DNA from: a virus | IMG/VR virus record: IMGVR_UViG_3300030329_004647 | Span: 124,001-188,000 of that record | Strand: one strand, 5' to 3' | DNA: 64,000 nucleotides | Shown here: piece after piece, positions 38,997 to 62,226 of the stretch | Layout of the letters: each line of letters opens with the position of its first letter | How positions within the stretch are numbered: position 1 is the first letter of the stretch | Translations under genes and position numbers: made by a program | The notes under the pieces: generated by a model | The model's input: only the letters and a program-made list of their open reading frames with translations | What the model was told of the DNA's origin: nothing | Database searches by the model: none

Positions 38997-39389
38997 TTAA
39001 AATTTAGCGTTTAAAAGTACTCTATTCATCGATTTATCTCCAAAAGGGTTGTATAACGGGGGCTTAGAAAAATCCTCAAAAGCACCATCAACCATTTTAG
39101 GTTTAAAACTTTTTATTCTATCTAATCTAAACAACCTCCAATCAGGTAAAGGAATTCCTTCTTCATTCACCTTAAGTGAAGGTCCTTCGGTTTGATACGC
39201 TCTTAAAACTTTATTATTTCTTTTAGAAAGTCCTAAAGCTACTGGTTCTATGGTTCTTTTACCTGGACCCAGTTTAGAGTCGTCTTCATAACCTAGTTCA
39301 CAAACATGTTTATTTCTAATCGCGTCAGAAATTTCTGCTTGAGAAGCTTGCTCAAGAATAATATTTTTAAATATATTGTAAAGAGTCAT
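38997..39389 (-). CDS. WYL-domain-like small protein
   Basis: 130 residues. After the start MTLYNIFKNIILEQA, the rest reads ISDAIRNKHVCELGYED, GKRTIEPVALGLSKRNN, KVLRAYQTEG, and DWRLFRLDRIKSFKP. This is the order of a WYL domain (V.f.Y....... R.v.P..l......y..A......fR.dRI), a fold that senses ligands or nucleic acids in bacterial regulators. No DNA-binding region is present. The N-terminal 15 residues resemble a T4-type capsid-targeting peptide with a possible I-L-E|Q cleavage site, an inference. It is two bases from the next gene. Confidence 0.6.
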   Translation of the reverse strand: MTLYNIFKNIILEQASQAEISDAIRNKHVCELGYEDDSKLGPGKRTIEPVALGLSKRNNKVLRAYQTEGPSLKVNEEGIPLPDWRLFRLDRIKSFKPKMVDGAFEDFSKPPLYNPFGDKSMNRVLLNAKF

Positions 39390-43837: not shown

Positions 43838-43883
43838 TTTTTAGTGCAACCAAAATAATTATAGTAAAGAAACATTTTAAAAT

Positions 43884-44765
43884 ATGCCATCATACATTAG
43901 ATTACTAACAGAAAAAAACACCAATGTCCCTATTCCACCAACAGGGCATACATCAATATTCTCTAGCAGTGGAACAACACACGGAGAAAAACAATATACA
44001 TTATATTATAAAACACCAGGTGGTAGCACGTATCCAGTAGGATACCAAGCTCTTTTAATGAGTGGTGGTACTTTTTCTGGCACTGTAGAGTTTTTATCAG
44101 GAGCAACTTTTGGTGGGTTGACTGCTGATACAGGAAACTTCTTATCAGGAATGACATCTAGTACTGGTATATTTTCAGGTATTAGTACTGGTTTTATCAC
44201 AGCAACTACAGGTGTCTTTACAGCGATAACAGCAACTGACGGCATAACTGGTGGTACAGGTTGTGTTTTCTCTGCTGTAACAGTAGCAGGTTCAGGTCTA
44301 ACCGCTGATACTATATACGCTACAACAGGTGTTACTGTAATAGGTGGATTAACAGCCACTACTAGTGGAACTACCTTCCCACCGAACCAAACAGTATCAT
44401 TTACTACAGGAGCAACAATAAGTGCTTGTGTTGAAACTTATATTTGTACAGCACAAACGCAGTCTTTAGTAATCGCACCATCCCCAACCTTAACAACTAG
44501 TAGTACGGGTACCACTGGCAGCTATTCTTTCTATAAAGTTAATACTACTGGAGGTGATTTTGGTACTCAGTTACCAGACGCGGCAGATGGAGAATTAAAA
44601 TATTTTGCTGTAGTAGCTGGGACTAATGAATTTGCTATACATGGAGTTAATCTTAATGGCACAAAACTAGTTTTAGATGCTATAGGAGAAGGGGCTACCC
44701 TTATTTATGATTCTACTACTACTAAATGGACTGTATTAGGCACAACAGGAACATTGACAGTTTAA
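43884..44765 (+). CDS. Thr/Gly-rich repeat fibre protein
   Basis: 293 residues. From about residue 55 to 165 the chain repeats blocks such as FLSGATFGGLTADTGNFLSG, then TSSTGIFSGISTGFITATTG and VFTAITATDGITGGTG, a pattern of stacked beta turns as in triple-beta-spiral or beta-helix tail fibres. The end (GDFGTQLPDAADGELKYFAV, FAIHGVNLNGTKL, LIYDSTTTKWTVLG) is a compact C-terminal tip domain. The abundance of Thr and Ser offers many O-glycosylation sites. It is between the LamG-like fibre and a BppU-like protein. Confidence 0.65.
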   Translation: MPSYIRLLTEKNTNVPIPPTGHTSIFSSSGTTHGEKQYTLYYKTPGGSTYPVGYQALLMSGGTFSGTVEFLSGATFGGLTADTGNFLSGMTSSTGIFSGISTGFITATTGVFTAITATDGITGGTGCVFSAVTVAGSGLTADTIYATTGVTVIGGLTATTSGTTFPPNQTVSFTTGATISACVETYICTAQTQSLVIAPSPTLTTSSTGTTGSYSFYKVNTTGGDFGTQLPDAADGELKYFAVVAGTNEFAIHGVNLNGTKLVLDAIGEGATLIYDSTTTKWTVLGTTGTLTV

Positions 44766-44768
44766 ATT

Positions 44769-45155
44769 ATGGAATTTTTCGTTAGAAAAGAATCACTAGA
44801 ACCAATTCTTAAGTTACAACTTGTACAAGACGGTAGAAATGACTTTGATGCATTTTATGATAAGTTATCTAATTCTACTATAAAATTTTCTATGAGAAAA
44901 GTAGAAAATGGTGTTTATAAAATTTTAAATAGAGCCGGTGGAATTGTACAAAAAACAAAAGAAAGTATTAATGCTCCTACAGAATATTACATTTATTATA
45001 GATGGAGAAAAAGTGATGTTAACAAAGTAGGTAGATTTCAAGGAATGTTTTCTATATATTTACACGACGAGTGTACAGAACTTAAAGTACCAATCAGAGA
45101 AGACCTATTTATTAATATAACAGATTCTTTTGTTCAAACTTCTTGTGACTGTTAA
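44769..45155 (+). CDS. Beta-sandwich baseplate-type protein, BppU-like
   Basis: 128 residues. FSMRKVENGVYKILNRAGGI, then YYIYYRWRKSDVNKVGRFQG, MFSIYLHDECTEL and VPIREDLFINITD fit the Ig-like N-terminal domain of baseplate upper protein (BppU) type proteins, where the order is fsm....ga....Y.W...d....G.y...F...P..g.i.i.I. Such domains link fibres to the baseplate. It begins 3 bases after the fibre gene, so an adaptor for that fibre is likely. Call made by eye. Confidence 0.5.
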   Translation: MEFFVRKESLEPILKLQLVQDGRNDFDAFYDKLSNSTIKFSMRKVENGVYKILNRAGGIVQKTKESINAPTEYYIYYRWRKSDVNKVGRFQGMFSIYLHDECTELKVPIREDLFINITDSFVQTSCDC

Positions 45156-45211
45156 TTGAATTTCCAACTTTTTATTATTACTTTTACAGTATAATATAAA
45201 AACGAAATTTA

Positions 45212-47932
45212 ATGCACATCCCAACTCAAAAAGACATAGAACAATTTCTACACGGTAATGACCCAGAAAAATACATAGTATCCTTAGAATTTGGTTATCG
45301 TTCAGGTAAAATATACAAAATTAAAGAGGACCCTAAAAGAGGAAAAATTGTAGAACCCGATACCTTTGTACCATTTTGTTGGGTAGGTGACCTAAGAAGT
45401 AAAAATTTTTACCAAAATAATAAAATCCTCCAAAAACAAGCAATTTCTAAATATGGAATTTTAATAGAGCCATTAGACACAGCTAATGATGAAAGATTAG
45501 AATCTGGATTAAAATACTTAGTAAAAACAACCAAAACTTATAGAGACTTAGTTACGTTTTTTAGACAGGGTGGGTTGGAACCGTGGGCTCAAGACAATAG
45601 GGATACTATTCTTATTTTACCACCTATAGAACAATATTTAATACAAAAACAAAAAAGATTATTTAAAGGATTTGAAGATTATGATAATATCCATAGGTTT
45701 GTTTTTGATTTGGAGACCACAAGTTTAAGACCTTCAGATGGTAGAATTTTTATGATTGGTATGAAGGACAATAGAGGGTTCGAAAGAGTTATAGAAGTCA
45801 AAAACGATAATGAAAGTGAAAAAGACGCTATTATACAATTTTTTGAAACTATTGATGTAATACGACCAACAATTATTGGTGGTTATAATTCAGCAAACTT
45901 TGATTGGGATTGGTTATTTGAAAGAGCACAAATTTTAGGTGTAGACACCACTAAATTTAAAACACTTAATCCAAATGAAGGATATAAATTAAAAAAAGGG
46001 GTTTTAAAGTTAGGTGCAGAAGTAGAAGAATACAATCAACTTAAAATATGGGGATACAATTCAATTGATATAGCACACGCGGTTAGAAGAGCACAAACTA
46101 TTAATTCAGACATTAAAAGTTGGGGACTAAAATATATAACCCAATTCACCAATTCTGAAAAACCAAACAGGGTTTATGTTCCTGGTGATAAAATTGCGTC
46201 AACTTATAGTGAAAATAAAGAGTATTACCTAAATAAAGATAATGGTAACTATAAGTTAACCACAGAACCAGGTTTACACAATTTAGATAAAAAATTTCCT
46301 AATGTTTATGAAAAGGTTAATGGTGAGTATATTATAGAAAGATATCTTATGGACGATTTATGGGAAACAATGGAGATTGACGCTCAATTTAACCAAGCTT
46401 CCTTTCTACTAGCTTCTATGGTACCCACTACCTATGAAAGAGTTTCTACTATGGGGACAGCTACATTATGGAAAATGTTAATGTTAGCTTGGTCCTATAC
46501 AAATAATTTAGCTATCCCTAAGAAAAAGGAAAAAAGACCTTTTGTCGGCGGACTATCACGATTAGTTAAAACGGGTTACTCAACTAAAGTTTTAAAATTA
46601 GATTTTAGTTCACTATACCCTTCAATACAATTAGTACACGACGTATTCCCAGAATGTGATGTTACTGGAGCTATGAAATGTATGTTAAAATATTTTAGAG
46701 ATACTAGGATAAAATATAAAAATTTAGCTTCAGAATATTATGAAAAAGATAAAAAAAAGTCTGAATCTTTTGGGAGAAAACAACTACCTATTAAAATTTT
46801 TATTAATTCTATGTTTGGTTCTTTATCAGCACCTCAGGTATTCCCTTGGGGTGACATGGATAGAGGTGAAGAAGTTACTTGTACCGGAAGACAATATTTA
46901 AGACACATGATAAAATGGTTTATCTCAAAAGGATATAAACCTTTGGTGTTGGATACTGACGGTGTTAATTTCTCATCACCAGAAGGTGTCGAGTCACATT
47001 CATATGTGGGTGTCGGTAATAACGAATTGGTGAAAAACGGAAAGGAGTATACTGGTAGTGATGCTCATGTAGCTGAGTATAACGATTTATATATGGTGGG
47101 TGAAATGGGGTTAGATACAGACGGAACTTGGCCCTCTTGTATTAATGTAGCTAGAAAAAATTACGCTTTACTTACTGATAAAGGAAAGGTTAAATTGACG
47201 GGTAATTCTATTAAGTCTAAAAAAATGCAAGGATTTTTAGAAGATTTTATAGATAAAGGTTTAAGAATTTTATTAGAAGGTAGGGGTTCTGACTTTATAG
47301 AATATTATTATGAATATTTGACATTAATATTTAATAAAGAAATTCCATTAGCTAAAATAGCTAATAAGGCAAGAGTAAAACAAAGTATAGAAGCTTATAA
47401 AAAACGATGTACACAAAGAACCAAAGCTGGACATTTAATGGCAAGACAAGCTCATATGGAGTTAGCAATTAGTAAAAACTTAAAAGTAGATTTAGGAGAT
47501 ACAATACATTATGTTAATAATGGTAAAGTAATGTCTCATGGTGATGTACAAAGAAAAAAGAAAAAAGACGGTACTGAAGAAATTGTTTTAAATTGTTATT
47601 TAATTTCAGAAAATGAACTACAAAATGAAACAACAGGAGAATATAATGTACCAAGATGTATAGCCGCGTTCAATAAAAGAATCGAACCATTATTAGTTTG
47701 TTTTAAACCAGAAATTAGAGACAGTATTTTAGTTAAAAAACCAGAAGATAGACAATACTTCACAAGAAAACAATGTGAATTAATAAATGGTATAGCTAGA
47801 AGACAAGGGGACCAAGACTCTCTAGAAGAAATATTAGAGTTATCTCCAGAAGAAAAAATATTCTGGTCTCAAACTATGGGAGAAAGTGAAAATTATTTTC
47901 TTGAAAAATTAGGACTCTTTGATACCGTCTGA
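45212..47932 (+). CDS. 43: Family B DNA polymerase, T4 gp43-like
   Basis: 906 residues. The exonuclease domain has VFDLETTSL (ExoI), GGYNSANFDWDWLFERA (ExoII) and YLMDDLWETME (ExoIII, Y-x-x-x-D). The polymerase has VLKLDFSSLYPSIQL (motif A), INSMFGSLSAPQV (motif B region) and PLVLDTDGVNFSS (motif C). Motif C reads DTDG instead of the usual DTDS; the catalytic Asp pair is kept. Length matches T4 gp43 (898). It should be the main replicative polymerase with proofreading. It lies between fibre genes, and its last 24 bases overlap the end of the convergent S74 fibre gene. Confidence 0.95.
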   Translation: MHIPTQKDIEQFLHGNDPEKYIVSLEFGYRSGKIYKIKEDPKRGKIVEPDTFVPFCWVGDLRSKNFYQNNKILQKQAISKYGILIEPLDTANDERLESGLKYLVKTTKTYRDLVTFFRQGGLEPWAQDNRDTILILPPIEQYLIQKQKRLFKGFEDYDNIHRFVFDLETTSLRPSDGRIFMIGMKDNRGFERVIEVKNDNESEKDAIIQFFETIDVIRPTIIGGYNSANFDWDWLFERAQILGVDTTKFKTLNPNEGYKLKKGVLKLGAEVEEYNQLKIWGYNSIDIAHAVRRAQTINSDIKSWGLKYITQFTNSEKPNRVYVPGDKIASTYSENKEYYLNKDNGNYKLTTEPGLHNLDKKFPNVYEKVNGEYIIERYLMDDLWETMEIDAQFNQASFLLASMVPTTYERVSTMGTATLWKMLMLAWSYTNNLAIPKKKEKRPFVGGLSRLVKTGYSTKVLKLDFSSLYPSIQLVHDVFPECDVTGAMKCMLKYFRDTRIKYKNLASEYYEKDKKKSESFGRKQLPIKIFINSMFGSLSAPQVFPWGDMDRGEEVTCTGRQYLRHMIKWFISKGYKPLVLDTDGVNFSSPEGVESHSYVGVGNNELVKNGKEYTGSDAHVAEYNDLYMVGEMGLDTDGTWPSCINVARKNYALLTDKGKVKLTGNSIKSKKMQGFLEDFIDKGLRILLEGRGSDFIEYYYEYLTLIFNKEIPLAKIANKARVKQSIEAYKKRCTQRTKAGHLMARQAHMELAISKNLKVDLGDTIHYVNNGKVMSHGDVQRKKKKDGTEEIVLNCYLISENELQNETTGEYNVPRCIAAFNKRIEPLLVCFKPEIRDSILVKKPEDRQYFTRKQCELINGIARRQGDQDSLEEILELSPEEKIFWSQTMGESENYFLEKLGLFDTV

Positions 47933-48874
47933 CGAAACAATCATCCAAGAAGACATAGGTTCATAATATCTAAACTCAACACAACTTTCAGGCAACATCT
48001 CTAAAGACTCCCATTGATTATCTATGTAACCTTTATCTGGAAATACGTTACAATTTGCTAATGATTTAATAACATATTTTTTAGCAACATGACTGTCTAA
48101 GGTATAATCTACATCCTCATCTAAGACAATAAAAACATCTTTTTCACAAAGACATTCTTTTTTAGTGGTTTCCGTTGAAGTATTAACCTTAGGTGTGTGA
48201 CCCTTTTTAAGATATTCTATTATAGCTAGAGTAAGTAATTTATAGTTAACTCCTCTAGGGGTCTTACCATCTATTTCATATGATACAAAATCAGTTAGTC
48301 CTAAATCATGTACTTCTTCCGCTATTAATCCTATAGCTTCTGTTTTATCTGCCTTCCACCTAAATCTTTTAGTTTCTAAACTTAATAAATTTTCTAAATT
48401 TAGAATATCCGTATTTCTAATATCGTATTTAACTCTTTTTGTCGAGGTATCAATGTATATGTTACCATTAGAATCAATACCTAAAGCGTCTTTATCCGCA
48501 GCCAATAAATTACTTCTATTAATTTGTAGGCATGTAGCACTAAACGCGGGAACATTTGGGTTACTCCTATCAATTGGGTCTAAAGGTGCTTGACCAATAG
48601 ATAAAACTGTAGTCGCACTTGTTATTCCTGAATATGTTGTTATAGCTACACCGTGAGTACAATCTTCAGTAAGATTTCCAGCACTATTATATATTGAACT
48701 ACCAACTAACAGTGTAGCTCCACTAGAACATCGTGTACATGCACTAGAATAACTAAATCCGTTATTCATAGCTCTGAAATTTCCTAAATAAAAAGTGTTA
48801 CCAGATAATATAGCGGTTTGACCACTATATTGCCTCATTTGTCTACTATAATCTATCTTTGTATAAAATCCCAT
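47909..48874 (-). CDS. Tail fibre protein with C-terminal S74 chaperone domain
   Basis: 321 residues. The first ~140 are Ser/Thr/Gly-rich fibre material (YSGQTAILSGNTFYLGNFRA; SSGATLLVGSS). Residues about 140-225 form a peptidase S74-type intramolecular chaperone: IDTSTKRVKYDIRNTDIL, LENLLSLETKRFRWKADKTE, AIGLIAEEVHDLGLTDFV and GVNYKLLTLAIIEYLKK. In known fibres this domain guides trimer folding and then is cut off. A C-terminal ~95 residues follow, with a Cys-rich linker (ECLCEKD), which is longer than usual. It belongs with the 376-residue structural gene upstream, one base apart. Confidence 0.8.
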   Translation of the reverse strand: MGFYTKIDYSRQMRQYSGQTAILSGNTFYLGNFRAMNNGFSYSSACTRCSSGATLLVGSSIYNSAGNLTEDCTHGVAITTYSGITSATTVLSIGQAPLDPIDRSNPNVPAFSATCLQINRSNLLAADKDALGIDSNGNIYIDTSTKRVKYDIRNTDILNLENLLSLETKRFRWKADKTEAIGLIAEEVHDLGLTDFVSYEIDGKTPRGVNYKLLTLAIIEYLKKGHTPKVNTSTETTKKECLCEKDVFIVLDEDVDYTLDSHVAKKYVIKSLANCNVFPDKGYIDNQWESLEMLPESCVEFRYYEPMSSWMIVSSDGIKES

Positions 48875-48875
48875 A

Positions 48876-50006
48876 TTAAATTACGTAAATACTTCCTGGA
48901 TTCATTGGCCTATATCCTAATGATTTATTTAGGTTTTCTGCCTCTAGAGCTTTTCTCTCTAACATTTTATCATTCCTTAATCTTTCTAATCTAGCTACTA
49001 ACTCCTCTATTAATTTAGCATATTCATCTTTAGCTTCATTTAATAAACTATCATACTCTAAAGTAAGTTCTGAATCTGGTGTTTTTAAATTACCACCAAA
49101 CTTTCCTCGGACACGACCTAATATTTCTTTAGATTTAGCGAAAAAATATCTTCTAACCCATGATTGAGCTGGAGGATTAAGTTCACCAAAATTAATTTCA
49201 TCCAATCTTACATCACTAGGTAATAATACAATATCTTTATTTTTTGCTAAACAATCGTCTCTATCACCACCAGTATCATAATACCAATAATAAACTCTGT
49301 GTTGGTTAACATCTATATTACCAAAATCAAATCTTCCACCAGGTACATTATATAGGTGTAGGTACTTAACTCCATTCACACCACCTGCTCCAGCTGTTAT
49401 TCTATATGTTAATTCACCACCAATAATTCTATTTTTAAGATTTCTATCCTGCATTCTTAATAGGATATCAAAAGCAGGCATCATATAATAAGAACCTTGA
49501 ATCCCCATTTGAGCAAATCCTCCAGGACCACCAACACCCATTCCACCAAATCCACCAAAAGCACCTAAAAACGGGTCTAAAAAAGCTTCGTTTAATTCTG
49601 CACGACTATACCACAACACTTCATTAATCTCTCGACCAGCTGGTATTTCATACATTTGTTGGTTATTAACTAAGGTTACATAGTCTTGTTTTAATTGGTA
49701 CGGTCCTCCAGCTTGTAAACCTACAATCTTTGAGTATGCGTAAGTAAATGACGTTTCAAAGTTAAGGTCTCTAGTCATAAAAGCGTTGGTGAGAGAAATA
49801 ACATCCTGGTCTTGACCATATAAAGAAGACCATTGATTTTCTATCAACCAATCCTGTATATACTGACCATAATCCATTATAGCTACTTCTAATGCCGTAT
49901 CTAACATTTCATCTTCTAATTCAACAGCTCTTATAGGAGCACCTAACATGTGCTTACACTGTTTAAATAATTTTTCTCTTTTTAAGGGGTCTATTGTTGG
50001 TTCCAT
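48876..50006 (-). CDS. Virion structural protein (neck or connector type, unassigned)
   Basis: 376 residues. The N-terminal half is helical (LEDEMLDTALEVAIMDYGQY, IQDWLIENQWSSLYG), then FTYAYSKIVGLQAGGPYQLK and QQMYEIPAGREINEVLWYSR. The centre has a Gly-rich loop (GGFGGMGVGGPGGF), then FDILLRMQDRNLKNRIIGGE and LPSDVRLDEINFGEL, and a C-terminal coiled coil. I know of comparable proteins in marine T4-like phages as structural genes without a fixed name. A TATTTAT box stands 17 bases before the ATG. A head-to-tail or baseplate position is possible. Confidence 0.55.
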   Translation of the reverse strand: MEPTIDPLKREKLFKQCKHMLGAPIRAVELEDEMLDTALEVAIMDYGQYIQDWLIENQWSSLYGQDQDVISLTNAFMTRDLNFETSFTYAYSKIVGLQAGGPYQLKQDYVTLVNNQQMYEIPAGREINEVLWYSRAELNEAFLDPFLGAFGGFGGMGVGGPGGFAQMGIQGSYYMMPAFDILLRMQDRNLKNRIIGGELTYRITAGAGGVNGVKYLHLYNVPGGRFDFGNIDVNQHRVYYWYYDTGGDRDDCLAKNKDIVLLPSDVRLDEINFGELNPPAQSWVRRYFFAKSKEILGRVRGKFGGNLKTPDSELTLEYDSLLNEAKDEYAKLIEELVARLERLRNDKMLERKALEAENLNKSLGYRPMNPGSIYVI

Positions 50007-50023
50007 AAGCTAATTCTTTTACT

Positions 50024-50030
50024 ATAAATA
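50024..50030 (-). promoter_or_regulatory. Putative phage late promoter box TATTTAT
   Basis: Minus-strand AATATTTATAGTAAAAG, 17 bases before the ATG at 50006. It follows directly after the terminator at 50050-50070 of the gene upstream. Confidence 0.6.
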
Positions 50031-50046
50031 TTAGCAACTACGCATT

Positions 50047-50070
50047 AAAAAAGGTTCAAAAAGAACCTTT
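50047..50070 (-). terminator. Intrinsic terminator of the 50095-50703 gene
   Basis: AAAGGTTC (minus strand 50070-50063) pairs with GAACCTTT (50057-50050) around a 5-base loop, followed on the minus strand by a run of T. Confidence 0.8.
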
Positions 50071-50094
50071 CTTATATAAATTAGAATAAATAAC

Positions 50095-50703
50095 TTAATC
50101 TTCGTCTGTAATCTTATATTCTAGCTCCTGTCCTACAAGAGGTTCTTCTTTTTCAATCTCTATATCAACTTCGGATTCTTCTTCAGTTGGTGGAGTCATC
50201 ATTTCCTCATATTGTGTTAGTAAGTTTTGAACACCTCTACCAAACAAATCTTCATTACCTATATTATCTCTAAGGTCAAAAATATCTTGTACTAGTCTAT
50301 CTTGAGGAGAAATAGCCACCTCTGTTTCTTCCATTACTCTATGGACTATTCTTTTAAGTGTAGACTCATTTATTTTTACAACTTTTTTAGATTCATTCAT
50401 TCCTAATCCTTTAAATGTTCCATATCCTTCAGAGTTTTCATTTTTACCCTCAACCTCCATTTCTTTCATTTCTTCCATTTCAGTTTTTTCAGTATCCTCC
50501 ATTTCAGCTATCTCATCAGCTATTTTTCGTTGTGCTTTTGTTAACTCCTTAATGTCTGCGTTATACTTACCATGATTTTTTAAACCTTCTTTTGCAATCT
50601 TAAGAGCGTTGTATGCTGCTTTTAAGTCTGTTTTAGTATTCTTTGAATCACCCTCGTATAGGTTCATTAGAGTTTTACGTAGTTTAGATTTTATATTTTC
50701 CAT
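50095..50703 (-). CDS. Virion-associated hypothetical protein with INESTL motif
   Basis: 202 residues from ATG at 50703; a longer frame from 50751 would start upstream of the TATTTAT box at 50721-50727 and is not used. The protein is acidic and helical: MENIKSKLRKTLMNLYEGDS at the start, a Met/Glu-rich centre (EMEDTEKTEMEEMKEMEVEG), then GMNESKKVVKINESTLKRIV, which shares its motif with the 2196-2834 protein (GANESTKKVKTIVERL). The end is acidic (EEESEVDIEIEKEEP). A possible L-Y-E|G site follows the first helix. Function unknown; a packaged or scaffold-associated protein is suggested by analogy to T4 internal proteins. Confidence 0.65.
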   Translation of the reverse strand: MENIKSKLRKTLMNLYEGDSKNTKTDLKAAYNALKIAKEGLKNHGKYNADIKELTKAQRKIADEIAEMEDTEKTEMEEMKEMEVEGKNENSEGYGTFKGLGMNESKKVVKINESTLKRIVHRVMEETEVAISPQDRLVQDIFDLRDNIGNEDLFGRGVQNLLTQYEEMMTPPTEEESEVDIEIEKEEPLVGQELEYKITDED

Positions 50704-50720
50704 ACTGTTGTGTTTTAATA

Positions 50721-50727
50721 ATAAATA
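50721..50727 (-). promoter_or_regulatory. Putative phage late promoter box TATTTAT
   Basis: Minus-strand AAATATTTATTATTAAAAC, 17 bases before the chosen ATG at 50703. Its place sets that start. Confidence 0.6.
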
Positions 50728-50751
50728 TTTACTACACCAATAAAGATACAT

Positions 50752-51186
50752 TAGGATTATAGTATAAATTTTTTCTTTATAAAAAAGCGGTATTTAATTA
50801 TAATATTTTAATCACATTTAGAGCTAGTCTTTAAAAAGTAAAAAACAATAAAAAAATAGTTAAGTTTGTCGTAAAAATATTAACAACAGAAATAGTAACA
50901 TAGCTAAACTTATGACAATTAGCTGTAATTAAATAAAAATCACCCTAAAACCTTGACTTATTTTACGACAATTTTATATTAAAACTTGGAAAAATTAGAG
51001 TAAATTAGTGAAAATAATGGAAAATAATTGATATTAAAAAAAATACGTCTAACGTGTGTATAAACGTAAGTTTTTTAATAATTAAAATTAAGTTTGTATT
51101 ATTGACTACTATGGTTGGGGTTAAAATATGGGTTTTTAGTAATAATAACGGGTATTTATGACTACCAATAACAGTTATAAAAAATA
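50752..51186. other. 435-base non-coding, very AT-rich region with inverted repeat
   Basis: No reading frame of note. It lies between divergent genes. An 11-base inverted repeat TTGTCGTAAAA (50866-50876) and TTTTACGACAA (50961-50971) is present, 84 bases apart. A palindromic pair AGCTAA/TTAGCT lies between its arms. Two TAAGTTTG boxes (50861-50868, 51089-51096) match the TAnnTTTG half of a host promoter without a clear upstream TTTG. The region could be a regulatory hub or a replication start, with no decisive sign. Confidence 0.5.
51153..51159 (+). promoter_or_regulatory. Putative phage late promoter box TATTTAT
   Basis: GGTATTTATGACTACC, 33 bases before the ATG at 51193; the flanks are less alike than in the other boxes. 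Confidence 0.45.
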
Positions 51187-51192
51187 GTGATT

Positions 51193-51417
51193 ATGGATTC
51201 AGTATTTAAGTATGTAAATGGTTTTATTAGTGGAGTTGGAAGTCTTTTTATGGCTTTCATACCAGTAACGATTCTATGGTATGTATTGACTGGCGGTGCT
51301 GTGTTTAACATGGACGTAGTAGGAAACTTAACAAATCTTCTAACAAGTTTAGGTGACGGAGGTTTTGTTGGTTTAGTAGTATTAGTTATTCTAGCATCCT
51401 TTTTTACAAAAAAGTAA
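51193..51417 (+). CDS. Small two-TM membrane protein
   Basis: 74 residues from ATG at 51193; a GTG at 51187 would add two residues and is less likely. Two hydrophobic spans, about 13-35 (SGVGSLFMAFIPVTILWYVL) and 57-72 (GGFVGLVVLVILASFF), are separated by a polar loop with GNLTNLLTSLGDG. The tail FTKK is basic. Function unknown; a holin or pinholin, or a superinfection-related protein, is possible. It lies upstream of a predicted outer-membrane protein gene in the same direction with a hairpin between them. Confidence 0.6.
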   Translation: MDSVFKYVNGFISGVGSLFMAFIPVTILWYVLTGGAVFNMDVVGNLTNLLTSLGDGGFVGLVVLVILASFFTKK

Positions 51418-51491: not shown

Positions 51492-51899
51492 ATGAAAAAT
51501 TTAATTTTAGCAGGGATTTTCAGTTTAGCCACTTTATGTGGGTATTCACAAACAAAGGGAGACTGGTATGTAGGAACAGGCGACATCGCGAACAGCGCTT
51601 GGACTGACTGGGCAGTATCACCAACGATTGGATACGGAATTATGGACAACCTAATGATAGGAATGTCTGTATCACAAGCTGATTCTACTGTGGATATGGA
51701 TTTGGATTTTCACGCAAGATACTTTACAAAAGGATATTTTGTGTATGTTGCAACAGATGGATTGAGTACTGACAACATGGTTTTAGGAGGTGGTAAAATG
51801 TTTGCCTTCAGAAACAATATGTACATCGACCCAAAAATTGTATACAACATGGGTGAAAAGACCACAAACCTTACAATGGGATTTGGTTTCAAATTTTAA
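51492..51899 (+). CDS. Predicted outer-membrane beta-barrel protein
   Basis: 135 residues. Residues 1-20 form a signal peptide with the Bacteroidota-type ending CGYSQ. The rest shows alternating hydrophobic strands (WAVSPTIGYGIMDNLMIGMS, TVDMDLDFHARYFTKGYFVY, NMYIDPKIVYNMG, LTMGFGFKF) and ends with Phe in the beta-signal pattern used for BAM insertion (GFGFKF). The size fits a small barrel of about six to eight strands. It should be exported by the Sec route and put in the host outer membrane. A role in receptor masking or exclusion of other phages is inferred. It ends 120 bases before a strong terminator. Confidence 0.7.
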   Translation: MKNLILAGIFSLATLCGYSQTKGDWYVGTGDIANSAWTDWAVSPTIGYGIMDNLMIGMSVSQADSTVDMDLDFHARYFTKGYFVYVATDGLSTDNMVLGGGKMFAFRNNMYIDPKIVYNMGEKTTNLTMGFGFKF

Positions 51900-52012: not shown

Positions 52013-52038
52013 AACCCTGACGACGGTCAGGGTTTTTT
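52013..52038 (+). terminator. Strong intrinsic terminator
   Basis: AACCCTGAC (52013-52021) pairs with GTCAGGGTT (52026-52034) around a 4-base loop, followed by six T. It ends the plus-strand membrane-protein transcript. The stop codon of the convergent superoxide dismutase gene lies in the T-run. Confidence 0.9.
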
Positions 52039-52690
52039 ATTGCTTAGACTTTAAAGTATCACTAACATTATTCCAGTTAACAACTTTCCAGAAATTTTTT
52101 ATATATTTTTTTCTATCGGACATGTAATTAAGGTAATAAGCGTGTTCCCACACATCTAAACCTAGTAGAGGTTCCCCTAATCCTTCCATTAAAGGATTAT
52201 CTTGATTGGGTGTTGTAACTATTTTAAGTCGTCCATTTTTTAACACCAACCAACACCAACCAGAACCAAATACTTTACCTGACTCTTCGTCAAACTGTCT
52301 TTTAAAATTATCAAGACTACCAAAATCTTTATTTATTTTTTGTCTTAGTTCTTTAGACAAGTCTGTTTTGTTGGGGGTGATATAATCTTTAAAAAATAAA
52401 CTATGATTATAATACCCACCAGCATTATTCCTAGTAAAAGTATCATAATTTTTAATACCTTTAATAATTTTTTCTATGTCTTTTGGTGGGTTTTTTCTTT
52501 TAGATAGAGCTTCATTTAGTTTTGTTGTATACCCCTTATAATGTTTATTATAATGTTCCCACATTGTTTCATAACCCACGAAATCTTTAACAGAATTATA
52601 ATCATATGGTAGACTAACCCTCTTAAAAAATGATTTTTTAGCTTCCGCTATAATATTTTCGTTTAATATTTTCTTAATTAAATTTCTCAT
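52037..52690 (-). CDS. sod: Fe/Mn superoxide dismutase with N-terminal leader peptide
   Basis: 217 residues. The enzyme part runs from about residue 25 (VSLPYDYNSV) to the end. All four metal ligands are seen: His46 in WEHYNKHYKGY, His96 in NNAGGYYNHSLFF, Asp179 and His183 in LGLDVWEHAYYLNY. FGSGWCWLVL and TPNQDNPLM are also typical. It should convert superoxide to hydrogen peroxide and oxygen. The first 16 residues, MRNLIKKILNENIIAE, are an addition before the enzyme and end in I-I-A-E|A, a T4 prohead-protease-type site. This suggests the enzyme may be packaged in the head, an inference. SOD is unusual in phages. It overlaps the upstream gene by 4 bases. Confidence 0.92.
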   Translation of the reverse strand: MRNLIKKILNENIIAEAKKSFFKRVSLPYDYNSVKDFVGYETMWEHYNKHYKGYTTKLNEALSKRKNPPKDIEKIIKGIKNYDTFTRNNAGGYYNHSLFFKDYITPNKTDLSKELRQKINKDFGSLDNFKRQFDEESGKVFGSGWCWLVLKNGRLKIVTTPNQDNPLMEGLGEPLLGLDVWEHAYYLNYMSDRKKYIKNFWKVVNWNNVSDTLKSKQ

Positions 52691-53142
52691 TGTTTACTAA
52701 CTTTTTGCCAATAAGGTGACCTTAAAAGTACTGGGTACAGCTTTTTAGCTATCTCTTTGAATACTTTATTAATATTATCCATGTCGTCAACGTCTTTTTT
52801 ATTGTCATGAACAAATCTAAGAGCCGCTCTAGTAAAAATATCTCTTATCTCTTGTGCATTATCCCATAAATATTTAACAGGACCCTCTTGGTCCTCAAAA
52901 AAAGAATCTGTATTATAATCGCCAGTTTCCTTTCCTCGATTTAAAATATCAGAAGAAAAATGATGCTCCAAATTAGACTTACCGTCTGTTAAAAATGGTG
53001 AAAGGTCGGTCATTAACATATTATAAGCACCCCATAGTCTAAGCTGTTCAATATATCTAGAGACCTCAAAACGGTCTTTTGTTGGTAGTAGTTCTAAAGC
53101 ATCGTAATTATCTATTAGGTAGTCTATATCTGATTTTGACAT
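52687..53142 (-). CDS. Hypothetical helical protein, 151 aa
   Basis: Charged, all-helical sequence (SDIDYLIDNYDALELL, FEVSRYIEQLRLWGAYNMLM, IRDIFTRAALRFVHDNKKDV, FKEIAKKLYPVLL). No family is recognised and there is no membrane segment. It is the first gene of the SOD transcript, with a TATTTAT box 22 bases before its ATG, and overlaps the SOD gene by 4 bases. Late expression with SOD is therefore likely. Confidence 0.65.
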   Translation of the reverse strand: MSKSDIDYLIDNYDALELLPTKDRFEVSRYIEQLRLWGAYNMLMTDLSPFLTDGKSNLEHHFSSDILNRGKETGDYNTDSFFEDQEGPVKYLWDNAQEIRDIFTRAALRFVHDNKKDVDDMDNINKVFKEIAKKLYPVLLRSPYWQKVSKQ

Positions 53143-53172: not shown

Positions 53173-54906
53173 TTAGAGAGACTGCATTTCCTGTAGTATT
53201 TCCGCAAACATGTCTTCTTCTTCCATGTTATCTCCCATTACAGTGTCTATAATTCTTTTTTTCTGTTGTACTATATTATATATAATACGTTCTATTGTAT
53301 TTTCAAAAATAGGATATATACATGACACATTTTTCTTTTGTCCTATTCTAAATGCTCTATCTTCCGCTTGAGACATTGTAGCTGGAACAAAAGACAGGTC
53401 ATTAAATATTACAACCTCAGCCTCTGTAAGAGTAATACCAACCCCACCAGCAACTATATTTGAAACAAATACTTTTACATTTGAGTCATTTTGAAAATCG
53501 TCTACACTTTTTTGTCTATCTTCTTTTTTCATTTGACCATATAATGGAACAGCTACCTTTTTATATTTTGAAAGAATTTGCATTAGAGGTTCAGTAAAGT
53601 TTGTAAAAACAATCACCTTTTTATCTTGTTCTAAACACTGGTCAATAAGGTCATATGTGTTTTTGAGTTTTTCTAGAGCAATAAGTTGTCTAACCTTCAT
53701 TAGTTTGGACAGCTGTATTGTTAAACTTTTATTTTTGTTATCGTTTGCCCAATCCAAATACTCACCAACCTCTCTTTGATATTCCGTAGAATTTAACTCC
53801 AAAAAAATTGGCGTTATAATTTTATCTGGTAAATCTAATATTTCTTCTTTTAGTCTTCTTAAAACTTTTTGTTTAGTTCGGTCCCGTAATTCTTCTAGGT
53901 TGGATGCTCCATGAGTTAACCAAATTTTTCTATTCCCTTTTCTAATCTGATACCCATCACAATATCTTTTAACATAATGAACCCAGTTTTTCGCTACTCT
54001 AGAGTCTACTAACTTAAGAATATTATAGTAATTCATTGGTCTAGAAGTCATAGGTGTACCAGTTAATAACCAAACCTTTTTAATTTTAGAACATAAATTA
54101 TTCACCAACTTAGTACGTTGAGCTTTAGGATTAGAAATGTAATGAGCCTCATCTATTATAATTAAATCAAAATTTTCATCTAAAATAGTCGTAATACTCT
54201 TATCTATAGAGTGAAAGTTTTTTAATATATCATAATTTATTATTACGAATTTACCACTTTTCCACTTCTTACCCTCAACAATTCCAATTTCTTCTTTACT
54301 ATAATTTTCTATTTCTCTTTTCCAGTTTAATTTAAGTGTAGCTGGACATATTACTAATATTTTAGTTGACTTACTCTCAATAGCGGCTATTGTCCCACTA
54401 GTAGTTTTACCAACACCCATATCATCAGCTAAAATAAATTTATCATTACCTAATAATTTTTCTATAGCAATTTTTTGGTGGTCATAAGGCATTCTATGTG
54501 AATAAGGAGAGTAGTCTACAGAAACCTTTCTTTCTGTGTTAACAATAATTTGTGCTTTAGGCACCCAGAAGTCGTTTAAAGGATGAGTATCTATTATCTT
54601 CCCCCAAACATGGTAAGCTTTATCACTTTCACTTAATATTTTTTCTACCCATATTTTTTCTGGTTTTTTTTGTAAAAAGTTTTGTGACATAAGTGTTTCA
54701 CTTAAATAATCATCTATCTCAATCCACTTACGAGCTATTTTAGGTACATTTTCATAATTTTTAATAATATAGTCTGCTTGTTTACGAGTGGGCAAAAAGT
54801 TTTTAGATAACTTTAAATTGTTTTTTAATTTCAATATATAGTTATTTGCCCCCTCATATTTACTTAAGAGACTTAAAGATTCTATTTCAGGAAGTAAGTT
54901 ATCCAT
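53173..54906 (-). CDS. SNF2-family DNA helicase/translocase
   Basis: 577 residues from ATG at 54906, chosen because a promoter box ends just before it; a frame from 54942 would start inside that promoter. Superfamily 2 motifs in order: LADDMGVGKTTSGT (I, Walker A), LVICPATLKLNWKRE (Ia), LIIIDEAHYI (II), LLTGTPMTS (III), VIVFTNFTEPLMQILS (IV), VFVSNIVAGGVGITLTEA (V) and MSQAEDRAFRIGQKKNVSC (VI). The last is typical of SNF2/Rad54-like translocases. It may remodel DNA-protein complexes or help recombination-dependent replication, as UvsW does in T4. Its own host-type promoter suggests early expression, unlike the late neighbours. Confidence 0.88.
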   Translation of the reverse strand: MDNLLPEIESLSLLSKYEGANNYILKLKNNLKLSKNFLPTRKQADYIIKNYENVPKIARKWIEIDDYLSETLMSQNFLQKKPEKIWVEKILSESDKAYHVWGKIIDTHPLNDFWVPKAQIIVNTERKVSVDYSPYSHRMPYDHQKIAIEKLLGNDKFILADDMGVGKTTSGTIAAIESKSTKILVICPATLKLNWKREIENYSKEEIGIVEGKKWKSGKFVIINYDILKNFHSIDKSITTILDENFDLIIIDEAHYISNPKAQRTKLVNNLCSKIKKVWLLTGTPMTSRPMNYYNILKLVDSRVAKNWVHYVKRYCDGYQIRKGNRKIWLTHGASNLEELRDRTKQKVLRRLKEEILDLPDKIITPIFLELNSTEYQREVGEYLDWANDNKNKSLTIQLSKLMKVRQLIALEKLKNTYDLIDQCLEQDKKVIVFTNFTEPLMQILSKYKKVAVPLYGQMKKEDRQKSVDDFQNDSNVKVFVSNIVAGGVGITLTEAEVVIFNDLSFVPATMSQAEDRAFRIGQKKNVSCIYPIFENTIERIIYNIVQQKKRIIDTVMGDNMEEEDMFAEILQEMQSL

Positions 54907-54912
54907 TATATA

Positions 54913-54943
54913 CAAATATAATAAATTCTCTAATATAAACAAT
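54913..54943 (-). promoter_or_regulatory. Bacteroidota-type promoter of the helicase gene
   Basis: On the minus strand ATTG (54943-54940) is followed after 19 bases by TATATTTG (54920-54913), one mismatch from TTTG-N19-TAnnTTTG. The box ends 6 bases before the ATG at 54906. Confidence 0.6.
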
Positions 54944-56855: not shown

Positions 56856-59800
56856 ATGGCTAACGGTAATAATAGAGTATTCGTATCTCCAGGGGTATAC
56901 ACCTCGGAAAAAGATTTAAGTTTTGTAGCACAGAGTGTTGGTGTTACAACATTAGGTTTGGTCGGAGAGACCAAAAAAGGGCCAGCTTTTGAACCAATCT
57001 TTGTAAGTAATTATAGTGACTTTACAACTAGATTTGGTAGTACATCAGCTGACAAATTTGTTGATACACAAATTCCTAAACACGAATTAGCATTTATAGC
57101 AAAATCTTACTTATCACAATCAAATCAATTGTTTGTGACAAGAGTATTAGGATTAAATGGTTATGATGCAGGACCATCTTGGTCAATAACAACAATCGGT
57201 GAAGTAGACCCACTATACGTTTCTGCTGCAACATCAGCTCAAACAACGAGTAACTGGAGTGACATTATTTACATTCCAATGACCTCAACTACCGCTACGC
57301 CAGACGGAATATATTTAACATATAACTCTGCGACAGGAAAGTTTAGTGACCCTATCACTGATATGACAACATTTGGGGGTGCCAATTTCCCAATTCAAAA
57401 TTACCAACTAACAGGCCAAACATTTATTAATGGGTATGGAACTACTTTAGGTACTTTTATTGATGAAATAACCTCTTTTGTTAACACAGTAAATGGTGGG
57501 GACAATATGTCTTGGGATGGTTCAGGACTAAGTCAATACTGGTATTATGGTGTATTAGGTACAGGAACAACTGTTGGTGGTGAAGGAGCAAATAGTTTTT
57601 GTGAACATTACGCTAACACGTGGATGACAGGTAATACATCAGGATTATCCATTCAAGCAATAGACCATGAAAATAGATTAGCTGTTGACGCTTCAAACTT
57701 CTATGATGACCAAAATGATGGTTGGTATGACACTTTATTCGAGTATGAATATGGTGAAGGTGCTAACTGTTACTGTACTTCTTATTCAGGTTCTTCATTT
57801 GATATGTTTGGTTATTCAGCTTTAACAGCTCAAACATATATAGATGAAGTTGACTTAAGTACTAGTGGAGCAAGTACATTCTTTGCTGGTGGACAATTTA
57901 ATAATGACCCAACATCAGGAGGAACAAGTACAGAATGGTCAGGAGCTACAGGAGTAAATGGAACAGGTGGACAAGCTGTAATATCGTTTACGGCTACTAG
58001 TAGTGGTGGTCCAGAAACTTGGGCATACAGAATTGGTTCAACATCAGCTAACGCAACAGGTGTAGTAGCTAATGTATGGAGTTCCCTATACCAAACACCA
58101 GTGGGAACATATGATAGTATAGGACCTGTAACGACACATCCTTATGTACCATCTGATTTTGACGAGGTATTATCAGGAGGAACAGCATCCACAACAACAG
58201 TATTAAAGAGTAATCCATATCCAGTACCATTAACGCCATTCGATTTCGCGAAGAGTGGTACAACTTGTGATACTAGTATAGGAGCTTACTCAGCTGTTTC
58301 AGTAATTTATAGTGGATTTGCTAATATTGGTAGTTTAGTAGGTGGTAACTTAGGTGGAGCAGGAACTGGATTCGACCAAGGTAATCTATCTTCAGGTATT
58401 TCACATACCTTTGTTGGTTTCTCTGGAGCTGACGGACCAAACTCATATTCTGGGACACTTGCTGTTAATATGGTATTCTATAGTGCTGATTGTCAATCAC
58501 AAAATCTGTTAACATTACAATTAAGTGGTTGTGCAGCTGAATATCAAAATGTAAGTGCAGACACTGAATATCACAACTTAGTAGTGGCAACAATGAGAGC
58601 TAGAGGACAAAGTTCACTTTCTACAGGAGGACCAGTCTATACAATTAGTGGTTCATCATCATCCTCAACAGGAGCTTACGGTGATGTAACATTTAATTGT
58701 TTAGGAGCTTACCAACCAATAGTTGATGACCCATTCTTTAATTTTGGTATAAGTGCTAGAACGGATGGTGGAGCAACATATAACTTTGATGTGAGCATGA
58801 ATACATCATCTAAAAATTACCTACCAAAAGTATTAGGTAGAAATGTATTTGATAAAAAAATGGAGGAAGTTCCTATTTTTGTTGAGGAAGTTTACCCTAA
58901 TATCCTAAAATATGGATTTAATAGAAATAGAATTAGAGGCCTAAACTGTTGTTTATTAAAATTACCAGCAGCAAGATGGAACAATACAGGTATGGATTCT
59001 ATAGGTTGGTACATGCAACAATGGCAAACACCAGAAACACCTTACGTAGTTTCAGAATTACGAGGTGAGGATGTATATAGACTATTTAAATTTGTTTCTA
59101 TTTCAGACGGTACAGAAGCAAATAGAGAATATAAAGTATCAATTATAAACATTTCATTTGAAAGATTAGAGTTTGATGTATTAGTTAGAGATTTCTATGA
59201 TAGTGACGCTAGTCCTGTTGTTTATGAAAAATTCACAAGATGTAGTTTAGACCCATCATTACCTTCTTTTATAGGAAGAAAAATAGGTACTTCAGATGGT
59301 CAATACGAATTAAGGTCTAAATACACAATGTTATATTTAACTGAAGAGGTTTTAGATGGAACACTTAAAGACGCTGTTCCAGCAGGTTTTGATTACTACG
59401 ATTTTAGAAATTATGAAAACGGTGCTGGTAAAACGTGTAGAGCTATTCCACCGATGTTAAAATATAAAACAAAATACTTTACGGCTGGAGAAGTAGTTTA
59501 TGACCCACCTTATGATAACGCTGACGGAAGTGCTAACTCTTATATATCACCAGGTGACAATGTGAGAAAAACATATTTAGGTATTTCTGACACAGTAGGT
59601 GCAGCTATAGATTTTGATTTCTTCGAGTATAAAGGTAAGAAAACACCAGTATCGGTTTGTACAGATGTTAATGGTGTAAGTTGGGGAACAATCAGAAAAG
59701 GTTTCCATATGGATTCAGGAGCTACAATAATTGTTGCGGGTTCTGGAACGTATATAACACAATCGGGTACAACTCTTAGTGGTGACTCTATCTTTGAGGT

Positions 59801-60941
59801 GGGAGCAGCAGACTTTAGAGGTGAACCAGCATCAAGTAATCACCCATACAAAAAACTAAATTCTCGTAAATTTACTTTAGCACCTTATGGTGGTTTTGAT
59901 GGATGGGATGAATACCGTAAGTTTAGAAGTAATGGTGATTCCTATAGACTTGGACTACAAGGATTCTTAAATGGAGCGTGTAATGACGCGGTTTACCCGT
60001 CAGCTGTAGGAGACGGTTCATTTAAAGCTCTAAGTAGTACTGAAGCAAATACGGATTATTTTGCATACCTTAGAGGTGTACAAACATTCCAAAACCCAGA
60101 AGCGGTTAATATTAATGTATTTGCTACACCAGGTATTGACTACGTTAACAACCAATCTCTAGTTAAAGAATCTATAGATATGGTAGAAAGTCAAAGAGCT
60201 GACTCGTTATATATTACGACAACACCTGACTTTAACATGTACGTACCAACATCTTCAGATGTGACAAATCAAATATCACCAACAGAAGCTGGAGATAATT
60301 TAGAGGACTCACTAATAGATTCTAACTATACGGCAACGTATTATCCATGGATTTTGGTTAGAGATGACAATAGTAATAAACAAATCTATATACCACCAAC
60401 ATCAGAGGTTACTAGAAACTTAGCATTAACTGATAATGTAGCATTCCCTTGGTTCGCTTCAGCAGGTTATACACGTGGTTTAGTAAACGCACAAAGAGCT
60501 AGAAGAAAACTGACTCAGGACGAAAGAGATACGTTATATGTTGATAGAATTAACCCAATAGCGACATTCTCAGATGTAGGACCAATTATTTTTGGACAGA
60601 AAACTCTACAAATTAAAGAGTCTGCTCTTGACAGAATTAATGTTAGAAGATTATTATTACAAACAAGAAAACTAATTTCCGCGGTAGCTGTTAGACTACT
60701 ATTCGAACAAAATGATGATGTAGTAAGACAACAATTCTTAGACCTAGTTAACCCTATATTAGATTCTATTAGAAGAGATAGAGGTTTAACAGACTTTAGA
60801 GTTGTACTTTCTAACGACCCAGAAGAAATTGATAGAAATGAATTAAATGGTAAGATTTACTTAAAACCTACAAGAGCGTTAGAGTTTATCTTCATAGAAT
60901 TCTTGATAACACCAACTGGAGCAGAATTTGAATCAGTTTAA
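56856..60941 (+). CDS. 18: Tail sheath protein, gp18-like, unusually long
   Basis: 1361 residues, about twice the length of T4 gp18 (659). The N terminus has RVFVSPGVYTSEKDLSFVAQ, then GLVGETKKGPAFEPIFVSNY and FTTRFGSTSADKF, which match the sheath start. The C-terminal ~300 residues (ARRKLTQDERDTLYVDRINP, FGQKTLQIKESALDRINVRR, LLLQTRKLISAVAVRLLFEQ, KPTRALEFIFIEFLI) match the core that forms the contractile scaffold. Between about residues 130 and 650 lies a long Ser/Thr/Gly-rich insertion with fibre-like patches (GGTSTEWSGATGVNGTGGQA, SGSSSSSTGAYGDV) that would project outward. Tube, neck and baseplate genes surround it. Confidence 0.92.
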   Translation: MANGNNRVFVSPGVYTSEKDLSFVAQSVGVTTLGLVGETKKGPAFEPIFVSNYSDFTTRFGSTSADKFVDTQIPKHELAFIAKSYLSQSNQLFVTRVLGLNGYDAGPSWSITTIGEVDPLYVSAATSAQTTSNWSDIIYIPMTSTTATPDGIYLTYNSATGKFSDPITDMTTFGGANFPIQNYQLTGQTFINGYGTTLGTFIDEITSFVNTVNGGDNMSWDGSGLSQYWYYGVLGTGTTVGGEGANSFCEHYANTWMTGNTSGLSIQAIDHENRLAVDASNFYDDQNDGWYDTLFEYEYGEGANCYCTSYSGSSFDMFGYSALTAQTYIDEVDLSTSGASTFFAGGQFNNDPTSGGTSTEWSGATGVNGTGGQAVISFTATSSGGPETWAYRIGSTSANATGVVANVWSSLYQTPVGTYDSIGPVTTHPYVPSDFDEVLSGGTASTTTVLKSNPYPVPLTPFDFAKSGTTCDTSIGAYSAVSVIYSGFANIGSLVGGNLGGAGTGFDQGNLSSGISHTFVGFSGADGPNSYSGTLAVNMVFYSADCQSQNLLTLQLSGCAAEYQNVSADTEYHNLVVATMRARGQSSLSTGGPVYTISGSSSSSTGAYGDVTFNCLGAYQPIVDDPFFNFGISARTDGGATYNFDVSMNTSSKNYLPKVLGRNVFDKKMEEVPIFVEEVYPNILKYGFNRNRIRGLNCCLLKLPAARWNNTGMDSIGWYMQQWQTPETPYVVSELRGEDVYRLFKFVSISDGTEANREYKVSIINISFERLEFDVLVRDFYDSDASPVVYEKFTRCSLDPSLPSFIGRKIGTSDGQYELRSKYTMLYLTEEVLDGTLKDAVPAGFDYYDFRNYENGAGKTCRAIPPMLKYKTKYFTAGEVVYDPPYDNADGSANSYISPGDNVRKTYLGISDTVGAAIDFDFFEYKGKKTPVSVCTDVNGVSWGTIRKGFHMDSGATIIVAGSGTYITQSGTTLSGDSIFEVGAADFRGEPASSNHPYKKLNSRKFTLAPYGGFDGWDEYRKFRSNGDSYRLGLQGFLNGACNDAVYPSAVGDGSFKALSSTEANTDYFAYLRGVQTFQNPEAVNINVFATPGIDYVNNQSLVKESIDMVESQRADSLYITTTPDFNMYVPTSSDVTNQISPTEAGDNLEDSLIDSNYTATYYPWILVRDDNSNKQIYIPPTSEVTRNLALTDNVAFPWFASAGYTRGLVNAQRARRKLTQDERDTLYVDRINPIATFSDVGPIIFGQKTLQIKESALDRINVRRLLLQTRKLISAVAVRLLFEQNDDVVRQQFLDLVNPILDSIRRDRGLTDFRVVLSNDPEEIDRNELNGKIYLKPTRALEFIFIEFLITPTGAEFESV

Positions 60942-61365: not shown

Positions 61366-62226
61366 ATGAGTAAAATTATCATAACAGCAAAACAACTAGA
61401 ACATCTAAGTAATGTAGTTAAAGAACAAGCTAGAGCAAATAATGGTGCTGTAAGAGCTTATTCTTTTGATTGGGACGACAATATCCTCCATATGCCTACT
61501 AAAATTGCAATTGATTACAATAACGGCACAGAATGGGTACCAACCCTCATAACCACTGAAATGTTTTCTAAGGTAAGAGAAAATGAAAATTTTAGGGTAA
61601 ATGAAGATTCCTTTGTTAATTTTAGAAATGATAATGTTTTTTTTGACGACCTTAATGAAGCTTTACAAAAAAGAAGTTTCGCTCCTTCTTTTGAAAAATT
61701 TAAAGAATCTTTAATATACGCTAATCCTTTTTCTATTATTACAGCAAGAGGACATACACCAGAAGTTTTTCCTAAAGGTATAAAAGTAATAATTGGAAAT
61801 ACTTTTAGTGAGGGAGAACTAGAAGATATGTTATTTAACATTAAGAAGAAATATCCAGAAACTGTGGACTATTCACCGTGGGACGCGATTGATTTTTATT
61901 TAAATGAAAATGAATACCACCCTGTAACATCCGAAGAATTCGGTAAAAAATTCGGAAATAGGTTCATCAATACGGATAACCCTGAAGAAGCTAAAAAAAC
62001 AGCACTTAGAAATTATATAGAAAAAGTTGTAAACGGTGTTAGTAAAATAGAAGATGGTAATTATTCACAATTATCTATAGGTTTTAGTGACGATGACTAC
62101 GGTAATATAAGTGCTGTAATAAATTTAATAAAAGATGAACTAAACCAAAAGTATCCACAAGTAAATTTTGTTGTATATGACACATCTAGTGGTGACATAA
62201 ACAAAATTGTAGTTAAAAGAGAATAG
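61366..62226 (+). CDS. HAD-like protein in the tail module
   Basis: 286 residues. The N-terminal 20 residues, IIITAKQLEHLSNVVKEQ, follow the recurring motif. A HAD motif I follows in VRAYSFDWDDNILHMPTKI (Asp35, Asp37), then NPFSIITARGHTPEVFPKG (motif II Thr), and SPWDAIDFYLNENEYHP with LSIGFSDDDYGNISAVINLI (motif IV-like Asp pair). I know this FDWDDNI protein from marine T4-like phages near the tail tube gene, without a defined role. It may be a phosphatase or a chaperone-like assembly factor. It has its own terminator and late box on both sides. Confidence 0.65.
   Translation: MSKIIITAKQLEHLSNVVKEQARANNGAVRAYSFDWDDNILHMPTKIAIDYNNGTEWVPTLITTEMFSKVRENENFRVNEDSFVNFRNDNVFFDDLNEALQKRSFAPSFEKFKESLIYANPFSIITARGHTPEVFPKGIKVIIGNTFSEGELEDMLFNIKKKYPETVDYSPWDAIDFYLNENEYHPVTSEEFGKKFGNRFINTDNPEEAKKTALRNYIEKVVNGVSKIEDGNYSQLSIGFSDDDYGNISAVINLIKDELNQKYPQVNFVVYDTSSGDINKIVVKRE

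Follow-up and report, generated by a model that had tools for sequence, protein, structure and literature searches.

A phage superoxide dismutase with a putative T4-type capsid-targeting leader

The stretch of DNA analysed here (the window, 64,000 nucleotides) covers bases 124001-188000 of the 232,028-base virus record IMGVR_UViG_3300030329_004647. The virus is large, uncultured and bacterial. The window encodes a superoxide dismutase (SOD) with a short N-terminal leader, and two genes nearby recur beside SOD in distant relatives. The features of the locus are given below.

52037..52690, minus strand: gene for an Fe/Mn (Mn-type) superoxide dismutase with N-terminal leader, 217 aa, ATG start (Pfam PF02777/PF00081, AlphaFold/PDB match, 17 viral relatives)
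52643..52690, minus strand: leader, residues 1-16, MRNLIKKILNENIIAE, with a predicted cut after Glu16; conserved (I/L/V)xE, class-A leader common to other proteins of the phage
52037..52642, minus strand: predicted mature SOD, residues 17-217, and stop codon
52142..52555, minus strand: span of the metal ligands His46 (52553-52555), His96 (52403-52405), Asp179 (52154-52156) and His183 (52142-52144)
52687..53142, minus strand: 151-aa gene directly upstream of SOD
53173..54942, minus strand: helicase-like gene (helicase from sequence motifs only) that recurs upstream of SOD in distant relatives; homologues adjoin SOD in the clade-2 loci listed
48876..50006, minus strand: head-tail adaptor (neck) protein (PHROG 211, E=1.8e-10), whose gene recurs downstream of SOD in distant relatives (synteny)
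51492-51899: protein with a Sec-like signal, MKNLILAGIFSLATLCGYSQ, unlike the SOD leader

The 151-aa gene, for which neither Pfam nor PHROG gave a confident match, ends in a stop codon that overlaps the start of SOD (ATGA), and the two genes are therefore probably translationally coupled.

The initial annotation described a complete Fe/Mn SOD, and this description holds. Both Pfam domains pass their curated cut-offs (Sod_Fe_C, E=1.2e-40, and Sod_Fe_N, E=3.4e-14; 138.1 and 53.5 bits versus 20.9 and 27), and the core of the AlphaFold model matches MnSODs, with a TM of 0.86 to MnSOD 6gsc. The four ligands were named correctly, as they form invariant columns in an alignment of 13 phage SODs (alignment A1). 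Gln163 in NQDNP together with the AGGYYNH motif is the Mn-type arrangement of this family. The fold begins shortly after the leader, as had also been stated: the Sod_Fe_N match starts at residue 25 and the PDB alignments at residues 20-27, the best ones at 21-22. Since these alignments start so late and pLDDT falls below 50 solely at residues 4-18, the leader is an extra piece ahead of a complete enzyme. The core is under strong constraint (pN/pS 0.10), whereas that on the leader is weaker (0.52).

The leader and its next residue read MRNLIKKILNENIIAE↓A, the arrow marking the boundary, and the likeness of this boundary (IIAE16↓A) to that of T4 IPII and IPIII, which start MKTYQEFIAE↓A, is real. 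Propeptides in T4 span 10-19 residues and are removed by gp21 after L/I-x-E (PMC9026906); the 16-residue SOD leader ending in (L/I)xE fits both the length and the cut rule. A T4-like targeting sequence of the MKTYQEF type is not present in this leader, whose N-terminal half reads LIKKILxE, and the targeting step is thus drawn by analogy. The T4-like leader class is at background in the genome (G000), with 4/235 N-termini versus 50/2884 internal segments.

A single motif match means little, since (L/I)xE↓[AGS] with Glu at residues 10-20 also occurs in 12 of 235 N-termini and 44 of 2340 internal segments of the same genome. One (L/I)xE↓A match is weak against a background of about 2%-5% of comparable segments, and the motif by itself was rejected as proof of capsid targeting. 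Unlike the motif alone, comparison of sequences across relatives makes the case for the leader much stronger. A wrongly placed start codon is disfavoured, as six close relatives keep the leader in frame, with no change of length except an in-frame insertion, at the pN/pS given above.

A scan of viral contigs yielded the 17 relatives of the window SOD. The residues found before the SOD core are IIAE↓A, LLTE↓A, LLVE↓A, LLTE↓V, FLSE↓A, LVTE↓A, LILE↓S, LILE↓G, LLLE↓E, LIEE↓G, PINE↓A and SINE↓S. All 12 leader-bearing close relatives have Glu at P1 and I/L/V at P3, although the leader class changes and most other leader positions vary. The Glu16 column of alignment A1 is nearly invariant, the sole sequence without it being the leaderless L018. 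Three classes of SOD leader are distinguishable, LIKKILRE (L002-L009), ITESQ (L010-L014) and a T4-like one, MKIINFYDYLPINE↓A (L016/L017).

A profile scan brought in a second, larger SOD group with at least 575 confirmed candidates. Among 33 dereplicated distant phage SODs, P1 is Glu in 33 and P3 is I or L in 33, with P2 variable. Many SODs of the second group are fused to a C-terminal region or have an HExxH-containing region in front. By eye, a C-terminal (L/I/V)xE triplet after the SOD core was counted in 24/24 fused versus 1/8 unfused proteins, and a second one ahead of the next region in 23 of the 24 fused SODs. This is how a protease-processed polyprotein would be expected to look. Extra regions before or after SOD in L122, L145 and L164 are without confident Pfam families. 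The SOD polyproteins of L145 and L124 are ~880 aa long, and their C-terminal motif pattern resembles nucleases (QVKPxxD), again with no confident Pfam family; in L145 this type of pattern is apparently present twice. In the distant relatives listed, SOD lies between the helicase-like gene and the head-tail adaptor gene, and the window SOD has the same two neighbours with some genes intervening.

Whether host SODs bear the same leader, a point raised in the initial annotation, was tested on 80 bacterial SOD loci, to which the window SOD has a best identity of 49%. No such leader was found in the 56 cellular N-termini read from them; these proteins show the core from the start or carry Sec/Tat-like signals, and an origin of the leader from a host SOD was rejected. 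In a tree built without badly trimmed rows, a strongly supported branch parts cellular from phage SODs, and only the leaderless L018 falls on the cellular side. SOD matches in Staphylococcus, Salmonella and Listeria records of the phage collection were set aside as likely to be host DNA.

The 232-kb virus is T4-like and encodes a gp21-type protease, gp23, a gp20 portal and a terminase. The protease belongs to Peptidase_S77 (PF03420, E=4e-25; genome 116587-117303), and the gene for the major capsid protein gp23 lies at genome 118838-120670. gp23 contains THLINE↓ATAADNSGSFETVVFPIIRR where T4-like gp23 propeptides end. LINE is unchanged in 40/40 distinct relatives, the next residue being Ala in all except one, which has Gln; the linker beyond it differs among them. 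From this position we infer that LINE↓A is the gp23 maturation site. The (L/I)xE type of cut site predicted for the SOD leader is thus also found in the major capsid protein of the same genome. Flavobacterium phage immuto, which grows on a laboratory Flavobacterium host, likewise has related leaders, a gp21-type protease and a gp23 with IVSE↓A, whereas a search for an isolate with the SOD described here found none.

This type of leader also starts unrelated proteins of the phage. A score matrix drawn from the leaders of the relatives' SODs, with the window SOD excluded and a threshold of 12 bits or more, matched 10/225 N-termini versus 0/1636 internal segments of the genome (p=5.6e-10); the ten include the SOD and an ORF that seems spurious. 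Leader-bearing examples include MKDLIKKILKEELLTE↓SAF (59090), MKTLIKKILRETKVKLLNE↓K (54728, with M23, peptidoglycan-binding and SLT domains) and MKSIIQKLLRE (80750, PAP2). Two further classes, IxLTExELxxLI and LSExEKxRIRxL, occur at 8/235 N-termini versus 2/1428 internal segments and at 6/235 versus 0/1428, respectively, these class A-D patterns having been drawn up with this genome already seen. G001, an independent relative, has class A and class B leaders at 3/308 N-termini each, versus 0/1610 internal segments (p=0.004). Further leader-like N termini in the window are listed here.

38997..39389, minus strand: WYL-domain protein (Pfam WYL, E=1.4e-7) with leader-like N terminus MTLYNIFKNIILEQ, weak leader score
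2196..2834, minus strand: protein with class-B leader MKTKKIRLTESELIALIEKTVK (class-B motif count)
61366..62226, plus strand: protein with class-B-like leader MSKIIITAKQLEHLSNVVKEQ, followed by an apparent HAD-type domain (YSFDWDDN) (ORF list)

Leaders are exchanged between homologous proteins. The 57418 proteins of G000, L002 and L008 have class A leaders and those of L003 and L006 class B ones, class differs between G000 and G001 for the 54728 and 53010 families, and a homologue of the 61366-62226 protein starts with another leader in G022, MDIKKHIYRELNKRRLNE. For the C-terminal part of 57418, which in G000 comes after GELITE↓AEYKG, the homologue in G022 is a separate protein with a leader ending in NLLNE↓AEYQ. 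In G010, the contig of L016, T4-like leaders are enriched at N-termini (13/93 versus 31/1192 internal segments, p=5e-6, with a pattern drawn up after inspecting the 12.6-kb loci L016/L017), and classes A-D are absent there. The operon neighbours of SOD in L002-L008 bear the same leaders as SOD. The SOD leader thus follows the dialect of its own genome in three groups, and most SOD leaders do so. The rule is not universal, because leaders of the second SOD group are longer and do not look like those of neighbouring genes.

Leader-like helices are also seen in interior or C-terminal positions (KINESTLKRIVHRVMEE, KLNKSTLKNIIKESISE and KTIVERLKRILKE in window 50095-50751, 38368-38994 and 2196-2834). 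Two very large proteins of 1787 and 1319 aa are encoded at G000 45839-51202 and 41856-45815 (genome coordinates; locus L021). A P-loop domain (GGPGAGK) within the 1787-aa protein corresponds to a stand-alone leader-bearing protein that adjoins SOD in L002-L008, which suggests polyprotein and stand-alone forms of one cargo.

We consider it probable, at roughly 0.72, that the leader is a T4-type removable capsid-targeting propeptide, cut by the gp21-type protease, that places SOD in the head. This interpretation is partly supported: each sequence test that could be applied speaks for it, and comparison backs it well without proving it, while we infer cleavage, packaging and injection from sequence. 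What stands of the original proposal of a T4-type leader is the protease, the gp23 site, the P3/P1 pattern, the sharing of leaders and their absence from the cellular SODs inspected; the part that does not carry over is the N-terminal half, LIKKILxE not being that of T4. Late in infection the leader would recruit the Mn-type SOD into the assembling prohead core, where the protease would cut after Glu16 in (L/I)-x-E↓A, as conserved sites such as LINE↓A of gp23 suggest. The mature SOD, residues 17-217, would remain in the head with the DNA until its probable ejection into the next host cell, in which it would clear superoxide during the first minutes of infection; the packaged enzyme may also protect the genome in the head. 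The folded SOD dimer would probably unfold to pass the tail, or else act inside the particle. In many relatives SOD would enter the head as part of a longer polyprotein, flanked on either side by (L/I)xE sites, and it would be one of many proteins of the phage with such leaders. The main steps have precedents, since the T4 targeting sequence can bring foreign proteins into the T4 head (PMC9026906) and PBCV-1 packages a Cu/Zn SOD (PMC7019647). A broader proposal, on which we see the odds as even, is that this large lineage of T4-like phages packs an enzyme toolkit with the help of several leader dialects, which differ between genomes, can replace one another and are cut by gp21 at (L/I)xE, with Mn-SOD as a conserved member delivered with the DNA against early superoxide.

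Several observations weigh against capsid targeting: the N-terminal half unlike that of T4, the constraint on the leader below that on the core, the smaller class counts in G001, class patterns drawn up with the genome already seen, the weakness of a single motif, leaders of the second SOD group unlike those of their neighbours, the unfolding of the dimer that passage through the tail tube would need, and other large phages (Vibrio 2.275.O, PA5oct) whose SODs have no obvious leader system. No virion proteome was found for this phage lineage, which was likewise counted against it. Another destination could also be suggested, as some leader-bearing proteins look envelope-directed (M23/SLT, PAP2).

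The leader might instead stay uncut and act as a docking tag for the virion or scaffold: the particle would then carry SOD, inside it or on its surface, as an uncleaved fusion, with (L/I)xE no more than a piece of a docking helix. AlphaFold models the leader as a helix (at low confidence), LIKKIL recurs in many proteins, and only some of these show a clear second (L/I)xE close to the mature domain. However, conservation within the leader is highest at P3 and at the P1 Glu, with P2 free, which is the signature of a protease site; polyprotein sites flank SOD on both sides only when a further domain is fused; and gp23 has the same type of boundary, conserved. We therefore regard an uncut tag as unlikely. 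Slightly less likely again is an ordinary auxiliary enzyme, cytoplasmic during infection, with a leader that is dispensable or serves expression or folding. Large phages such as Vibrio 2.275.O do encode host-like SODs without such leaders, and the pN/pS of the leader exceeds that of the core, but P3 and P1 are conserved in every leader-bearing relative, the leader is swapped and rarely lost, it is common to unrelated proteins of the phage, and SOD adjoins neck genes.

A secretion or membrane signal, or an envelope tag, with SOD working in the periplasm or at the cell surface, would accord with the M23/SLT peptidoglycan enzymes and PAP2 among the other leader-bearing proteins and with the Sec/Tat-like signals on some cellular SODs. 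We find it very improbable, as the leader visibly has neither a hydrophobic core nor a twin arginine, (L/I)xE↓A is not a signal-peptidase site, and the phage's own Sec-like signals differ, e.g., the one in window 51492-51899.

A removable capsid-targeting propeptide would bring the SOD closest to IPI, IPII, IPIII and Alt of T4 (PMC9026906), with which it shares a short N-terminal propeptide, (L/I)xE↓A, and a gp21-type protease and gp23 in the genome; in L016/L017 the leader is nearly that of T4. Unlike the T4 internal proteins, the payload here is a conserved metabolic enzyme, the N-terminal half is LIKKILxE, many proteins bear leaders, and targeting and cleavage are predicted. The bacterial Sphingobacterium MnSOD 6gsc has the same fold and ligands and about 43% identity, whereas bacterial MnSODs start at the core or carry Sec/Tat-like signals, and the phage SODs group apart from them in the tree. 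The Cu/Zn SOD A245R of chlorovirus PBCV-1 (PMC7019647) is a viral SOD that is expressed late and found in the particle, but it has an unrelated Cu/Zn fold, belongs to an algal virus, and no T4-type propeptide is described for it. The polyvalent proteins of phages and conjugative elements (PMC5512222) resemble the relatives' SOD polyproteins in joining unlike domains in one chain that is predicted to be packaged and injected; the window SOD, however, is single-domain, and SOD is not mentioned in that paper. The ejection proteins of phiKZ-like giant phages, cut by a diverged gp21 relative (PMC5694885, PMC9026906), are likewise among many protease-matured head proteins of a large phage, but have another cut motif (SQE examples) and unrelated payloads.

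In PA5oct, EST35_0261 (L110:4968-5516) is a divergent SOD-like protein, annotated as hypothetical with an ESI-MS/MS note; its N terminus, MNDSIKKYISIAE↓A, stands before the core with the boundary ISIAE↓A. No leader system was seen in this phage. PA5oct was set aside as experimental support, (L/I)xE N-termini not being enriched among MS-detected proteins (4/38 versus 4/42), and the ESI-MS/MS note also marks ribonucleotide reductase and thymidylate synthase.

The initial annotation knew of no described phage case, and none was found in the open literature searched for a packaged phage SOD; chlorovirus virions carry a different SOD. The leader-tagged SOD would extend T4-type capsid targeting to a payload that none of the phage papers searched was found to describe. 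If so, this would be, to our knowledge, the first phage with an antioxidant enzyme in its particle, and superoxide would be suggested as an early obstacle for such phages, which is directly testable. Leader dialect plus (L/I)xE would then be a sequence rule predicting packaged or injected proteins of large T4-like phages, and conserved leader dialects could serve as packaging tags.

The host group of this T4-like lineage is probably Bacteroidota. A ribosomal protein S21 homologue is encoded at G000:C1:12799-12957 (PF01165, E=4e-8) and also in the relative G001; S21-encoding phages have been described from freshwater Bacteroidetes (PMC9723584). A long run of genes in window 13271-35449 resembles nucleotide-sugar epimerases, dehydratases, aminotransferases and glycosyltransferases, and by their resemblance the phage may make its own glycan. 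Window 56856-60941 encodes a tail-sheath-like protein of unusual length, 1361 aa.
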